From an uncultured Bacillota bacterium (GTDB lineage: Bacteria; Bacillota_I; Bacilli_A; Culicoidibacterales; ZOR0006), in NCBI GenBank assembly GCA_945956935.1, contig CAMFJD010000002.1, forward strand, positions 1-64,000: DNA of 64,000 nt, read 5' to 3'. Below the pieces are notes generated by a model that ran no database searches, had not been told where the DNA came from, and saw only the letters and a list, made by a program, of their open reading frames with translations. Both the position numbers and the translations under genes were made by a program. Numbering within the stretch: position 1 is the stretch's first letter; every line of letters starts with the position of its first letter. Positions 10,626-27,584 of this stretch are shown here, piece by piece.

Positions 10626-12298
10626 AACGATTATCAGGTTGGAAAATAATGACTCGTCTTATTGGTGAATTACAGGCGTTAATTCCAGTAATGATGTCAA
10701 CTATTTTTCTAGGAGTATTAGGATTTTTAGCAGCTATTTTCATCTCAGGATTTGCTGTAATTGCATTAGGGATATTTACGGGAGAAATTACCACAATTCG
10801 ATTTGAAACTGCTATTACAGTTATGATTGTGTTAGCAATTATGCGTGGATTTCTACGTTATGGAGAACAATTGTCTGGTCATTATTTAGCATTTAAAATT
10901 TTAATGCAGTTACGTGATAAAGTGTTTGCACATTTACGTAAACTTGCACCAGCTAAATTAGAAACAAAAGCAAAAGGGCAACTTATCGCGATTGTAACAA
11001 GTGATATTGAAATGTTAGAAGTTTTTTATGCACATACAATTGCACCGATTGCAATTGCGATAATTACAAGTAGTATTATTGTTGCAGTATTAGCACAAAT
11101 TCATGCTATATTTGCATTTATTGCTGCGATTTTCTTTCTATTAGTCGGTGTAGCAATGCCGTTATATTCTTCAAAGGCAGCTGGAAAAGCAGGTGTTGCT
11201 TATCGTGAAGTATTTAGTAATGGAAATAATTTTTTACTCGATTCGTTACGCGGATTAAAAGAGATTGTTGCTTTTGGGCAACAAGCAGCTCGTAGTGAGG
11301 CAATTAAACAGCACTCAGTATGTCTAAACGAACAAGTAAAACATTTAAAGCAAGATGAGGCGATAACGAGTGGGATGAGTGATATTCTCATCTCGTTAGC
11401 AATTATTATTGCGACGTTGACTGGAGCGATGTTGTACGTACAAGGAACATTGAGTTTTGTTACAATGATTTTTGCAGTTGTCATTATTGCATCATCATTT
11501 GGTCCAGTAGTGGCACTGAGCCGACTTGCGAATACGTTAGGACATACATTTGCGTGTGCACAACGATTATTTGATTTATTAGATGAACAACCTCAAGTGA
11601 TGGAAATTGATGGGCAGCAGCCAATGACAATTGAAAGGATGACATTGGAAAATGTTGCATTTCAATATGAAGATGTTCCAGTTCTAAAACAAGTGAATAT
11701 GACTATCAAAGCAGGTGAAAAAGTGGCTATTATTGGTCCAAGTGGGAGTGGAAAAAGCACCTTGATGAAACTATTGTTGCGTTACTTTGATCCACAAGTT
11801 GGAGGAATCAAGATGAATAACCAACCGTTACACTTGTTACCGACTTCGACTATACGAACTTTTGAAAGTGTGATGAGTCAAGAAATATTTTTATTTGCAG
11901 ATACAATTCGAGCTAATTTATTGATTGCAAAGCCGAGTGCGACACAAGTAGAACTTGAGTCAGCGACGAAGAAAGCTGCCATTCATGATTTTATCGTTCA
12001 ATTACCAAATGGATACGATAGTCAAGTTGGAGAATTAGGTTCGCTGTTATCAAGCGGTGAGCGGCAACGGTTGGGGCTTGCACGATTATTTTTACATGAT
12101 GGTCAAGTTTGGTTGCTAGATGAACCGACAAGCAATTTAGATGCATTAAATGAAGCAACAATTTTACAATCACTATCGATAAATGCTGAAGAAAAAACAG
12201 TCATTTTCATTTCACATCGACAATCGACGACTGCAATTGCAGATAGTGTGTATAGTATTGAACACGGTGTGATGAAACAAAAAGAGACAGATGTGTGA
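10622..12298 (+). CDS. cydC: thiol reductant ABC exporter subunit CydC
   Basis: Partner of CydD, translationally coupled through an ATGA overlap. An N-terminal membrane domain (about 1-310) is followed by an ATPase with GPSGSGKST (about 372) and Walker B VWLLDEPTSNLD. The signature reads LSSGERQRLGLAR, with Ser in place of the first Gly of LSGGQ. Length 558 aa is normal for CydC. Together with the glutathione-synthesis gene at the right end of the window it fits a thiol-export role (inference). The remnant of a YgbA-type gene starts on top of its stop codon. Confidence 0.85.
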   Translation: MKRLSGWKIMTRLIGELQALIPVMMSTIFLGVLGFLAAIFISGFAVIALGIFTGEITTIRFETAITVMIVLAIMRGFLRYGEQLSGHYLAFKILMQLRDKVFAHLRKLAPAKLETKAKGQLIAIVTSDIEMLEVFYAHTIAPIAIAIITSSIIVAVLAQIHAIFAFIAAIFFLLVGVAMPLYSSKAAGKAGVAYREVFSNGNNFLLDSLRGLKEIVAFGQQAARSEAIKQHSVCLNEQVKHLKQDEAITSGMSDILISLAIIIATLTGAMLYVQGTLSFVTMIFAVVIIASSFGPVVALSRLANTLGHTFACAQRLFDLLDEQPQVMEIDGQQPMTIERMTLENVAFQYEDVPVLKQVNMTIKAGEKVAIIGPSGSGKSTLMKLLLRYFDPQVGGIKMNNQPLHLLPTSTIRTFESVMSQEIFLFADTIRANLLIAKPSATQVELESATKKAAIHDFIVQLPNGYDSQVGELGSLLSSGERQRLGLARLFLHDGQVWLLDEPTSNLDALNEATILQSLSINAEEKTVIFISHRQSTTAIADSVYSIEHGVMKQKETDV

Positions 12299-23752: not shown

Positions 23753-24826
23753 ATGTCAAAGGTAACACTTTTTACACCTGGACCAGTTCAAGTGAATCCG
23801 AAGTGGATGGAAGCAATGGCACAGCCATTTTTTCATCACCGAGGGCGTGAATTTGAGCAATTAATGAGACAACTACAACCAAAATTACAGTACACATTTC
23901 AAACGCAGCAACCTGTTATGGTCATGGCAGGATCAGGAACACTGGCAATGGAGTCAGCGGTACGCAATTTATTTGCAGTGGGTGAACACGTACTTGTTGT
24001 GAGTATTGGCTATTTTGGTGATGTATTTGCGAAAATAGCGACGCTTTGTGGACTACAAGTCACGATGCTTTCGTTTGAGAAAGGAACAGCCGCACAGGCA
24101 GAAGATATTGCACAAGCAATTGCAAAAGATTCAACAATTTCAGGTGTGTTAGTGACACATCATGAAACAGCAACAGGAGTAGCAAATGATTTGAAATCGA
24201 TAGCTGAAGTTGTTAAAGAAACGGAAGCTTTACTTGTTGTTGATGCAATCAGTGGTTTAGTCATTCATGAATTGAAGATGGATGAATGGGAAATCGATTG
24301 TGTGTTGACAGCATCACAAAAAAGTTACTTTCTACCACCAGGCCTTGCAATGTGTGCTTGTAGTCAAAAAGCATGGAAAAAAATGCATGCATTACCTGCA
24401 AAGAGCTACTATCAAGATTGGCGTTTATATGAGCAAATGTGGCGTACAAAACAACAGACACCATTTACACCACCAATTCCTTTACTCGTTGGATTGAATT
24501 ACGCATGCGATGCTATTATTGAGGAAGGGCTTGATAATTTACAAGCTCGTCATCAAGCAATCCGTATGTTTGTACAAAAACAAGTAATTGAATCAGGCTA
24601 TGAACTTGCACCGACCGATCCACACGCACAAGGAAATGTACTTGTTGCTATTCGTGTAGATCAAGGTGCAAAGAATATAACTGATTATTTAGAATCACAT
24701 GGGTTTATGGTTGCACCAGGGCAAGGTGAGGAAATTGAAACGATTTTTCGGATCGGATGCATTGGTTATTTAGAGAAAAGTGATTTTGAAAATCTTTTTG
24801 CTACATTAGTGGCATACAAAAATTGA
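23753..24826 (+). CDS. class V aminotransferase (alanine/serine-glyoxylate type)
   Basis: PLP-dependent aminotransferase, 357 residues, starting MSKVTLFTPGPVQVNP, the family hallmark. MAGSGTLAMESAVRN binds the cofactor phosphate, VVDAISG has the Asp that contacts the pyridine ring, and ASQKSYFLPPGLAM holds the Schiff-base Lys. Relatives include PucG, AGXT and serine-pyruvate transaminase. The following P-loop gene starts 16 bp downstream and is surely co-transcribed. The natural substrate pair is not known; glyoxylate or pyruvate as amino acceptor is likely. Confidence 0.88.
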   Translation: MSKVTLFTPGPVQVNPKWMEAMAQPFFHHRGREFEQLMRQLQPKLQYTFQTQQPVMVMAGSGTLAMESAVRNLFAVGEHVLVVSIGYFGDVFAKIATLCGLQVTMLSFEKGTAAQAEDIAQAIAKDSTISGVLVTHHETATGVANDLKSIAEVVKETEALLVVDAISGLVIHELKMDEWEIDCVLTASQKSYFLPPGLAMCACSQKAWKKMHALPAKSYYQDWRLYEQMWRTKQQTPFTPPIPLLVGLNYACDAIIEEGLDNLQARHQAIRMFVQKQVIESGYELAPTDPHAQGNVLVAIRVDQGAKNITDYLESHGFMVAPGQGEEIETIFRIGCIGYLEKSDFENLFATLVAYKN

Positions 24827-24842
24827 TTGGGGGAACCTTACT

Positions 24843-26567
24843 ATGAGTTTTGCATTTGAGATGGGGCGCAACAGCGCTATTGCAAATTTTACACGACAAT
24901 ATTGTCAAACGGAAACAGAAGTTTTATCGAGTGAAGGTTTCGAACAAGTTTTAATAAGTTATTTGAATCGTATTACAAAAAAACAAACACGAACACATCA
25001 ATTTTTAATCTCGCATTTTGAACAAGAAAAAATCGGTGCTGAATTAAAACGGTTATTTAAGCTATTATTAGCATTTGATGCATGTGAAGTACGTGGTGCT
25101 GAATATCAAGCAATTCTACAAGATAAGCAACGTTTTATTGAAGTTATTGAAGAGTTTTATGATTATTGGCGCAGTCTTGAACGTTATGCGGTGATTTATA
25201 ATGCTGAGCAACGTCACACAACAGGGTTACAGGCACGGCAATTCTTACAAACAAATACTGATTTTGCGAATTTAATTTTAAGTCTATATCGTCAGATTGA
25301 AGAGACAGTAATTGGTGCACATCACCAAGTGTATCGTCAACTTATTGCCGGTGTAAATGCAGGTGTTATCGTTCATAATCCAAAGACGTTATTACCAGAA
25401 GAGTATCATTTTTTAAATGAAACACCGATGATTGAATCTGTTGTTTTACATCCACCATTTATCACATATCCATCACAAACAACACGTAATGGATTATTTG
25501 CAGAAGTTACAGAACAACCATTAATTGCCAGCGAGTACACAGCAGAGCATTTCTTCTGTTTCCCTGTAAAAGTTGGATCACTACTTGCATTTGTTTATTT
25601 TCATCGTGACTTTATGGCTCAGGGGATTACATTGGCCAATCTTTTTGAAATTGCTACACCAGCACAGACAGCAACAAAGAAGCCAGATTTAATCTATGTT
25701 TATGGAATGCCTGAAACCAAGGGTCAGAAGGCATGCTTCTATCACGATAAAGATGAACAAGTGTATATTGGGTATGCAACATATAGTGAAGCCCATGATT
25801 ACTTTGGTTATATGAAAAAAATGTTATTAACATTACATAATGTTGCCATGATTGATCAACAAAAATTACCGTTACATGGAGCAATGGCCCAAATTGAGTT
25901 TATGAATGGTAAAACAGCAAACGTTGTTATTATTGGTGATAGTGGTGCTGGAAAATCAGAAACATTGGAAGCTTTACGTACAGCAAGCAAAGGGATTATC
26001 CGTCAAATGACAATCATGTTTGATGATATGGGGACGCTACAGTTCAATAAACAAGGACAAATTGTTGCAACAGGAACAGAAATTGGAGCGTTTGTACGTT
26101 TAGATGATTTAGATACCGGATATGCATACCGTCAAATTGATCGTAGTGTATTTATGAACCCTGATAAAACAAATGCTCGTTTAGTAATTCCGATTGCAAC
26201 ATATGAAGAAATTATGACACCACAACCAGTTGATTTATTCTTATATGCCAACAACTATGAACACGGAGAAGCATTGGATTTCTTTACTGAAGTTGCACAG
26301 GCACATGAAGTGTTTGTTGCTGGTGCAAGAATGGCGAAAGGAACGACACAAGAAGTTGGATTAGTGAAATCATATTTTGCGAATCCATTCGGTCCAGTTC
26401 AGCGGCAAGCACAAACGGATGGATTACTGAAAACATACTTTGAGGCGTTGTTTAATGAAGAAATTCAAGTTGGACAGATTCGTACAGAACTTGGATTTAG
26501 CGAGTGTGCACAATCAGGCCCAGCAAAAGCAGCAGCAGCACTACTTACATACTTACAATCAAAATAA
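24843..26567 (+). CDS. uncharacterised HPr kinase/PEPCK-superfamily P-loop protein
   Basis: 574 residues. The first 250 or so match no domain I recognise. The centre has VVIIGDSGAGKSETLEALR; the P-loop GDSGAGKSE (365-373) is the type seen in HPr kinase/phosphorylase rather than the GLSGTGKTT of ATP-dependent PEPCK. MFDDMGTLQF, with paired Asp about 30 residues on, may bind Mg. The C-terminal part (AGARMAKGTTQEVGLVKSYF, ANPFGPVQ) resembles the PEPCK scaffold. It is paired with a class V aminotransferase. The enzyme activity is unknown; either a small-molecule kinase or a PEPCK-like reaction is possible. Confidence 0.6.
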   Translation: MSFAFEMGRNSAIANFTRQYCQTETEVLSSEGFEQVLISYLNRITKKQTRTHQFLISHFEQEKIGAELKRLFKLLLAFDACEVRGAEYQAILQDKQRFIEVIEEFYDYWRSLERYAVIYNAEQRHTTGLQARQFLQTNTDFANLILSLYRQIEETVIGAHHQVYRQLIAGVNAGVIVHNPKTLLPEEYHFLNETPMIESVVLHPPFITYPSQTTRNGLFAEVTEQPLIASEYTAEHFFCFPVKVGSLLAFVYFHRDFMAQGITLANLFEIATPAQTATKKPDLIYVYGMPETKGQKACFYHDKDEQVYIGYATYSEAHDYFGYMKKMLLTLHNVAMIDQQKLPLHGAMAQIEFMNGKTANVVIIGDSGAGKSETLEALRTASKGIIRQMTIMFDDMGTLQFNKQGQIVATGTEIGAFVRLDDLDTGYAYRQIDRSVFMNPDKTNARLVIPIATYEEIMTPQPVDLFLYANNYEHGEALDFFTEVAQAHEVFVAGARMAKGTTQEVGLVKSYFANPFGPVQRQAQTDGLLKTYFEALFNEEIQVGQIRTELGFSECAQSGPAKAAAALLTYLQSK

Positions 26568-26570
26568 CAA

Positions 26571-26600
26571 AAAAAGAAAGGGAATATCCTTTCTTTTTTT
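26571..26600 (+). terminator. terminator of the aminotransferase operon
   Basis: A 13-bp A/T-flanked stem with AGAAAGGA and TCCTTTCT around a 3-nt loop, ending in a T-run. Confidence 0.85.
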
Positions 26601-26714
26601 ATGTTTAACAAAGAGGCATGTTGATGGAGTACAATGATTTAGAGACAAATAATGGCTTCACTGCATATAACACGGTTATTCATAAATATTTTGTTATTTT
26701 GAGAGATAATCATT

Positions 26715-27584
26715 TTATATAAAATATTTCCATAGTGCCTGTGTTCCTTTATAGGCAAGTGTCGGATCGCGTTCGATAAGTTGTTCAAGCATATCAAGAA
26801 CATGTGCAGCCCCTGATAAGTGTAAATTAGAGGCACTTGCTTCTTCAAGCGCAATGCTCAGGTCTTTGATGAAATGAGTAATATAAAAACCAGGTTCAAA
26901 ATCTGCTTGAAGCATTTTAGATCCATTATTGATTAATTGCCAACTTGATGCTGAACCACTACCTGCTGTTTGAAGCATTTTTTCAGAGTCAATTTTTTGT
27001 GCTTTCGTATATGCTAAGAGTTCAACTACGCCGAGTAAATTGTTCGCAATTGCAATCTGATTTGCCATTTTTGCATGTTGTCCCATACCAGCTTCTCCAT
27101 AATAGGTAATTGATGTAGCGAATAAACTGAGTAAAGGATAGACGAGATGAAATTCAGTTATATTTCCACCGACCATCATTGATAATGTTCCGTTTTTTGC
27201 TCCAACATCACCACCAGTGACAGGTGCGTCAAGGGTGTGTATTCCACTCGTGAGCGCTTTCGAATGAATTTTTTGTGCAAGTGAAGGTTTCGAAGTTGTT
27301 AAATCAACTAAAATAGTGCCTTTCTTGCAATGAGAAAGCAAACCATTTTTTGTATCGAGATAAATATCCTCGACATCATGTGGAAATCCAACCATAGTGA
27401 AAATAACATCACTTGTTTGTGATACGGTTGCAATATCGTCAGCCCAAATCATGCCGGCATCAATAAGATCAAGGGCTTTTGTTTTTGTACGTGTATAGCC
27501 AGTTACACGGTAATTATGTTTCAATAAGTGTCGAACGATCGCATTACCCATGACACCCAAACCAATAAATCCAATGTTAGACAT
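26715..27584 (-). CDS. NAD(P)-dependent beta-hydroxyacid dehydrogenase (3-hydroxyisobutyrate dehydrogenase family)
   Basis: 289 residues. The N-terminal Rossmann motif GFIGLGVMGNAIVRHLLKH binds NAD(P). DAPVTGGDVGAKNGTLSMMV is the substrate-binding signature, and the catalytic Lys is in GQHAKMANQ (G-x3-K-x3-N pattern). Members reduce tartronate semialdehyde, succinate semialdehyde or oxidise 3-hydroxyisobutyrate; the specificity cannot be told. AAGGAGG lies 9 bp before the ATG. It converges on the aminotransferase operon, which would suit glyoxylate/serine metabolism (inference). Confidence 0.88.
   Translation of the reverse strand: MSNIGFIGLGVMGNAIVRHLLKHNYRVTGYTRTKTKALDLIDAGMIWADDIATVSQTSDVIFTMVGFPHDVEDIYLDTKNGLLSHCKKGTILVDLTTSKPSLAQKIHSKALTSGIHTLDAPVTGGDVGAKNGTLSMMVGGNITEFHLVYPLLSLFATSITYYGEAGMGQHAKMANQIAIANNLLGVVELLAYTKAQKIDSEKMLQTAGSGSASSWQLINNGSKMLQADFEPGFYITHFIKDLSIALEEASASNLHLSGAAHVLDMLEQLIERDPTLAYKGTQALWKYFI

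Follow-up and report, generated by a model that had tools for sequence, protein, structure and literature searches.

What does a gene encode whose product sets the P-loop of an HPr kinase/phosphorylase (HprK) within a body resembling phosphoenolpyruvate (PEP) carboxykinase (PEPCK)? The question is raised by a 574-codon ORF in the window, a 64,000-nucleotide stretch of DNA from an uncultured member of the Bacillota whose genome measures 1.84 Mb and is 99.8% complete; over the same interval, the one frame read on the reverse strand contains many stops (coordinates are collected in Table 1). An earlier note on this DNA had described an uncharacterised protein of the PEPCK superfamily, coupled to a class V aminotransferase, and had thought of a small-molecule kinase or carboxykinase in serine/glyoxylate metabolism. 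We consider it probable that the gene product represents an unrecognised class of PEP carboxykinase, with an anaplerotic role in supplying oxaloacetate for aspartate and asparagine; we infer the activity, its direction and the phosphoryl donor.

The gene was present in 104 of 395 genomes sampled from the class (one per species), in most over nearly its full length, and in all four species of the window's order that were in the collection; carriers outside the class include Clostridium, Fusobacteriales and Bacteroidales. When each GTDB species was represented by one genome, a scan confirmed at least 474 stretches as relatives, and the best 80 of these, which were kept, include representatives of Clostridium, relatives of Erysipelotrichaceae, Fusobacterium, Cetobacterium, Dysgonomonas, Prevotella and segmented filamentous bacteria. 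Going by record titles, a good part of the carriers are gut and rumen anaerobes. A search of open PMC papers yielded no paper recognised as treating this family. The idea of a phage or plasmid gene was rejected: there was no related locus in viral contigs, no phage record and a single plasmid record, that of L. fermentum DR9, in which the homologue (35.7% identical) is annotated as phosphoenolpyruvate carboxykinase. A search of BFVD returned two giant-virus PEPCKs alone at E<=0.001.

The window protein stays below the cut-off of every Pfam and NCBIfam model; PF01293 (PEPCK_ATP) gives 22.9 bits under a cut-off of 26.5 and the NCBIfam PEPCK model NF006821 gives 27 bits under one of 369, and both scores count against our assignment. 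The GTP-PEPCK model PF00821 showed no match to the window protein up to E 1. Among 20 diverse members of the family, PF01293 matched 11 and NF006821 matched 17 at E<=0.01; the Pfam and NCBIfam matches of these members were all weak (best E 2.1e-5 and 5.4e-8, respectively), and PF00821 was not among the 11 families matched at E 0.01. DUF4914 (PF16260) is weakly matched by three of these members (best E 0.0023) and unmatched at E<=0.01 by the other 17, the window protein included; the weak match suggests that DUF4914 and the PEPCK-like protein belong to a common superfamily. Searches of PDB sequences brought a single phmmer match to the window protein (E 0.12, taken as chance) and, with the family profile, weak matches to P-loop proteins, to HprK and to one other entry, all at E>=0.025.

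An AlphaFold2 model computed from 64 sequences (pLDDT 89.0, pTM 0.89) was compared with known structures by Foldseek and VIA, and all 50 matches listed by each program were PEPCK entries, among them 1j3b_B in Foldseek (E 1.4e-15) and 1ii2_B in VIA (Z 26.9, rmsd 2.9, 344 residues aligned). The absence of HprK from the VIA rows listed carries no weight either way. Model residues 178-574 were superposed by VIA on residues 5-466 of E. coli PEPCK (1os1; Z 25.6, rmsd 3.2, 363 aligned, 17% identity), the final residue of the model pairing with residue 466, so that, relative to a PEPCK, the protein lacks the last ~75 residues and carries a 176-residue N-terminal extension. GTP-PEPCK (EC 4.1.1.32), represented by 2fah_A, shares the fold (Z 23.3, rmsd 3.4, 380 aligned). 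The C-terminal part is therefore predicted to adopt the PEPCK fold, which bears out the placement in the PEPCK superfamily. The N-terminal part had been put at about 250 residues; because the PEPCK fold begins at about residue 177, it shrinks to about 176, and its description as a part with no clear known fold stands. Modelled apart as residues 1-196 (pLDDT 75.5), it gave no Foldseek match at E<=0.001, and its best VIA matches were globins (Z 6.2, rmsd 3.7, 110 aligned), which is uninformative for a helical model.

The active site was placed by hhalign of the family against E. coli Pck (L219) plus ten PEPCKs (probability 93.9, E 1.6e-7, 265 columns), and conservation was read from two alignments, A1 with 20 members and A2 with 64, the latter comprising the window protein and 63 of the 80 named loci, the rest having been thinned as close relatives or, at L189, cut by a contig end. 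The P-loop falls in register, G365-S372 lying on PEPCK G248-T255 and thus including K254/T255. Two counterparts are less direct. D394/D395 reach D268/D269 through HprK, of which the HprK-PEPCK step is weak (probability 34.7), and direct hhalign and MAFFT alignments put them elsewhere; R215 was assigned to R65 by its position in the strand order alone, and MAFFT does not pair the two, aligning R65 with P185. All of the listed counterparts (R215, Y320, K325/K326, H345, D394/D395, R446 and the P-loop) are invariant in A1 and A2. We take E. coli R65, Y207 and R333 to act on oxaloacetate, PEP and CO2, and K213, H232 and D269 to bind metal, and the oxaloacetate and metal side of the PEPCK site has been retained, probably including the counterparts of D268/D269 and R65. 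E. coli R449, which presumably sits on the ATP side, falls on S558 in the MAFFT alignment and has no counterpart. The residues kept, together with the absent R449, indicate a site whose oxaloacetate side is that of a PEPCK and whose nucleotide side differs.

Table 1. Positions of the features discussed (window coordinates unless a locus is named)
Feature	Coordinates	Strand	Basis
PEPCK-like gene (P0001), 574 aa; ATG at 24843, stop at 26567	24843..26567	+	ORF and translation
Class V aminotransferase, 357 aa; probable partner (glutamate/oxaloacetate -> aspartate)	23753..24826	+	Pfam PF00266
Residues 1-176, helical N-terminal domain peculiar to the family, without clear known fold (predicted)	24843..25370	+	predicted models
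Residues 177-574, PEPCK fold (predicted)	25371..26564	+	Foldseek and VIA on predicted model
R215, putative counterpart of E. coli PEPCK R65	25485..25487	+	strand order only; invariant in A1 and A2
Y320-F-G-Y-x-K325-K326, counterpart of Y207/K212/K213	25800..25820	+	hhalign; invariant in A1 and A2
H345, counterpart of PEPCK H232 and HprK H137	25875..25877	+	hhalign
Walker A GDSGAGKSE, residues 365-373, counterpart of PEPCK 248-256	25935..25961	+	hhalign
D394-D395, probable counterpart of PEPCK D268-D269 via HprK D175-D176	26022..26027	+	hhalign, transitive
R446 in NxRxxxP, counterpart of PEPCK R333	26178..26180	+	hhalign, also MAFFT
Hairpin followed by T-run, terminator-like	26568..26602	+	read by eye
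Two T-boxes at L035	6482-6694, 6724-6935		81.3 and 81.1 bits, both under cut-off 93
Two T-boxes at L036	11024-11231, 10777-10992		100.8 bits; 76.4 bits, under cut-off 93
T-box at L037	11046-11251		97.1 bits

Family ORFs could be taken from 82 of 83 loci (L045, with masked bases, gave none), and ten catalytic positions are intact in 80 of the 82; the sole departures are two degenerate paralogues, L110:7722-9170 (-) and L111:7737-9152 (-), which are 26% and 21% identical and occur in genomes that also hold an intact gene. The Walker A motif is altered in the first and broken in the second, and both are followed by a gene from a cluster of phosphoribosyltransferases (PyrR-like, as judged from another member that was scanned). 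The paralogues, together with the extra helical domain, might invite the view that the protein is a PEPCK relative without catalytic activity, or one with a regulatory role alone, such as a sensor of aspartate or a nucleotide, but the intact sites of all other aligned homologues make this very improbable.

Measured against classical ATP-PEPCK (EC 4.1.1.49), then, the window protein has the same predicted fold and counterparts of Y207, K212/K213, H232, K254/T255 and R333, together with those of D268/D269 reached via HprK, but it differs in its low identity (13-17% in the listed VIA rows), in a P-loop that reads GDSGAGKSE rather than GLSGTGKTT, in lacking a counterpart of R449 and the last ~75 residues, and in bearing the helical domain of 176 residues. 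The full-length match to a characterised ATP-PEPCK that the earlier note had contemplated was thus found by halves: it holds on the oxaloacetate and metal side, whereas the nucleotide end is missing and no family cut-off is reached. Passages of a 2020 review (PMC8100219) distinguish three PEPCK types, dependent on ATP, GTP or PPi, of which the ATP and GTP enzymes have a conserved mechanism and the PPi enzyme (EC 4.1.1.38) is unrelated to them.

Gene neighbourhoods point to aspartate. Neighbours of the 82 homologues and 80 named loci were clustered and cluster representatives, rather than every member, were scanned; omission of the two paralogues and 11 duplicate proteins left 149 distinct loci. 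An aminotransferase is the immediate neighbour in 15 of these (12 on the same strand, three divergent), and aminotransferases account for 15 of 289 genes at positions +-1 as against 4 of 1538 at +-2 to +-8, a comparison in which the queries were picked after the neighbours had been seen and the related genomes are not independent. The adjoining enzymes span PF00266, PF00155 and PF12897. Class I aminotransferases stand on the same strand at L067, L096, L097, L108, L109 and L156 and divergently at L063, L100 and L104; for that of L067, aspartate aminotransferases are the nearest named PDB proteins, after two unassigned class I/II entries, and at L107 the gene adjoins a member of the true aspartate aminotransferase family PF12897 (450.5 bits). 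The class V aminotransferase of the window ends 16 bp before the start codon of the PEPCK-like gene, as the proposed coupling would have it, but enzymes of this class adjoin the gene at only 5 of 149 loci (the window, L032, L033, L034 and L173), and the pairing is not a general one. Its nearest NCBIfam model is BhcA (202.9 bits, cut-off 650), and its best PDB relatives, 2dr1 and 1iug, are by their labels a hypothetical serine aminotransferase and a putative aspartate aminotransferase.

Other neighbours use up aspartate or have biosynthetic roles. AsnA is encoded directly upstream at three loci (L035-L037), threonine synthase (ThrC) adjoins at three (L081 and L093 on the same strand, L048 divergently), with ThrB also among the neighbours, and argininosuccinate lyase and synthase (ArgH/ArgG) lie upstream at three (L118, L119 and L128); formate-tetrahydrofolate ligase is upstream at 10 loci, and PurE or FolD follows the PEPCK-like gene at several. 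Against the main reading we count the many neighbours that have no obvious relation to aspartate, such as a signal peptidase cluster (14 pooled loci), ProS and a SpoU-type rRNA methylase. An AsnC-like regulator lies within four genes, on the opposite strand, at 23 of the 80 named loci, mostly in Clostridium; the one representative scanned, L118:10017-10487 (-), scores 200 bits against NCBIfam AsnC (cut-off 227), and an asparagine-responsive regulator is possible there. ZMP/ZTP riboswitches occur a few kilobases downstream in two Clostridium species with argGH upstream (L119:12565-12643 and L128:11639-11719).

Regulation supplies a further link. Tandem T-box leaders (RF00230) precede asnA at all three loci at which asnA precedes the PEPCK-like gene, the second element at L037 being recognised solely from TGGCACCGTG at 10832, by eye. 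All six T-boxes share the specifier region GGAACAC, and in the predicted fold of the first stem at L036 the bases AACA are unpaired between two helices, so that the specifier may be read as AAC, a codon for asparagine, with the customary A after it; the predicted folds of L035 and L037 show the specifier loop less cleanly, and fold energies are not unusual against shuffled sequences (z 0.22, -0.65 and -1.40). By mechanical ORF calls, 19-51 bp separate the asnA stop codon from the PEPCK-like gene; inspection by eye shows no terminator between the two at L037. Given the leaders, the short gap and, at L037, the lack of a visible terminator, the PEPCK-like gene at these three loci, which stand for a single lineage, is probably induced together with asparagine synthetase when asparagine is short. 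The window's own operon (L001) contains no T-box or other Rfam element at gathering score, which we count against the main reading. In that genome asnA lies on another contig (contig 31, L222:1447-2451), directly preceded by a T-box of 127.4 bits at L222:1105-1345 (+).

Five classical families tied to oxaloacetate were considered (PF01293, PF00311, PF02436, PF00821 and PF14010), and the window's genome has no match to any of them at E<=1e-20. None of the five was found in 58 of the 80 carriers checked, the window's genome included, and aspartate-family synthesis in these organisms is thereby left open by standard annotation. Within the class, PF01293 occurs in 45 of the 395 genomes and in 13 of the 104 carriers, PF00311 in four genomes and no carrier, and PF02436 in 62 genomes and six carriers; 60 of 63 PF02436 matches lie in ORFs of 400-600 codons (longest 702), lengths that we take to be nearer to oxaloacetate decarboxylase alpha than to pyruvate carboxylase. 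PF00821 was present in seven of the 80 carriers and PF14010 in one. The class sample as a whole shows no strict complementarity with the classical enzymes, PF01293, PF00311 or PF02436 being found in 19 of 104 carriers versus 65 of 291 non-carriers (p 0.41), and the twelve f14 genomes that hold both the PEPCK-like gene and a classical ATP-PEPCK count against the main reading. Among genomes positive for Asd/ArgC (PF02774), one of these three enzymes was found in 1 of 13 carriers versus 11 of 20 non-carriers (p 0.009), or 1 of 13 versus 10 of 12 with family f8 left out (p 0.0002); the restriction was made post hoc and the genomes are related, and this rarity is suggestive only. Asd/ArgC itself is not significantly commoner with the gene (13/26 versus 20/54, p 0.33) and is absent from the window's own genome, two further points against us.

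The best-surviving alternative keeps the PEPCK chemistry and reverses it: aspartate would be deaminated by the aminotransferase and the oxaloacetate converted to PEP, in the service of gluconeogenesis or of the fermentation of amino acids. Clostridium and Fusobacteriales, which often ferment amino acids, make up many of the carriers, and an aminotransferase partner suits either direction. According to passages of the 2020 review (PMC8100219), PEPCK in other organisms operates close to equilibrium and is for the most part gluconeogenic. The recurrent neighbours tell against such a flux, since AsnA, ThrC/ThrB, ArgG/ArgH and formate-tetrahydrofolate ligase with PurE/FolD consume aspartate or serve biosynthesis, and tandem asparagine T-boxes would induce the gene when asparagine is short; we regard the reversed reaction as unlikely.

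The likeness to HPr kinase/phosphorylase (PF07475, TIGR00679) gives rise to a second alternative, a kinase of a small molecule such as serine or glycerate, or an HprK-like protein kinase, with the class V aminotransferase acting on serine or glyoxylate. The two families share a GxSGxGKSE Walker A, an HG before it and a DD pair after it, and the early identification of residues 365-373 as an HprK-type Walker A was sound: the motif matches that of HprKs in related genomes (for example GKSGIGKSE), at every one of the nine positions at least 80 of 82 homologues agree, and on both counts it is not a chance resemblance. The class V enzyme is, moreover, related to serine-glyoxylate and alanine-glyoxylate aminotransferases, and a gene resembling 2-hydroxy-3-oxopropionate reductase lies downstream (26715-27584, on the opposite strand; TIGR01505 210.6 bits, cut-off 340.75). 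That gene, however, is convergent with the PEPCK-like gene and was seen beside it only within the genus (the window and the sister species L032). The alignment of HprK with the family (hhalign, probability 81.9) is limited to 57 columns, outside which lie the invariant PEPCK motifs YFGYxKK and NxRxxxP; PF07475 has no listed match to the window protein or among the 20 members, and TIGR00679 is weakly matched in two of the 20 (best E 0.0013). HprKs of related genomes are ~307-317 aa long compared with 574 aa here, and of the 48 carriers tested, 43, the window's genome among them (G000:C15:26571-27074), have a separate HprK gene at another site, on which ground a role as HprK substitute was rejected. 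With PEPCK residues kept outside the shared stretch and class V pairing rare, a kinase of either sort is improbable and the serine/glyoxylate part of the original proposal is disfavoured, while its carboxykinase option gains from the predicted fold and the retained oxaloacetate and metal residues. The divergence of the nucleotide end, with S558 in place of R449 and the last ~75 PEPCK residues absent, would also suit a carboxykinase-like enzyme with a different 2-oxo acid or enol as its substrate, or with a non-nucleotide phosphate donor; residues that touch oxaloacetate, PEP and metal are nevertheless among the invariant ones and the recurrent gene context centres on aspartate, and we find this quite improbable.

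Under the preferred reading of an anaplerotic PEP carboxykinase, K326, H345 and D395 would bind the metal ion, K371 and S372 of the P-loop the metal-nucleotide, and R215, Y320 and R446 would hold PEP or oxaloacetate. The enzyme would catalyse PEP + CO2 + NDP (or another phosphate acceptor) <-> oxaloacetate + NTP, running mainly in the carboxylating direction, as the gene context suggests, and the neighbouring aminotransferase would convert oxaloacetate to aspartate, from which asparagine (AsnA), arginine (ArgG), threonine and purines could be made. The N-terminal helical domain probably either reaches in from outside to complete the active site, in place of the nucleotide-side residues that are missing, or has a regulatory effect on that site, and may itself be a sensor. 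Should the assignment be true, a step that is anaplerotic, fixes CO2 and conserves energy would be added to metabolic models of the carriers, and the PEPCK/HprK superfamily would acquire a member that combines a PEPCK active site with an HprK P-loop sequence. More tentatively, and with considerable doubt, we suggest that the family might constitute a fourth PEPCK class beside the ATP, GTP and PPi types, evolved for the fixation of CO2 into aspartate and asparagine in anaerobic Firmicutes, Fusobacteria and Bacteroidetes, with a novel phosphoryl donor site completed by a gating or sensing N-terminal helical domain and, in some species, under tRNA-Asn control via tandem T-boxes.

A divergent PEPCK-like group was also encountered in five genomes (L202-L206, in G155, G265, G217, G182 and G077). 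Its members score 74-79 bits against PF01293, the four that were aligned carry CHGG and GLSGSGKST motifs, and in all five genomes the PEPCK-like match lies ~1.2 kb from a PYC_OADA match.
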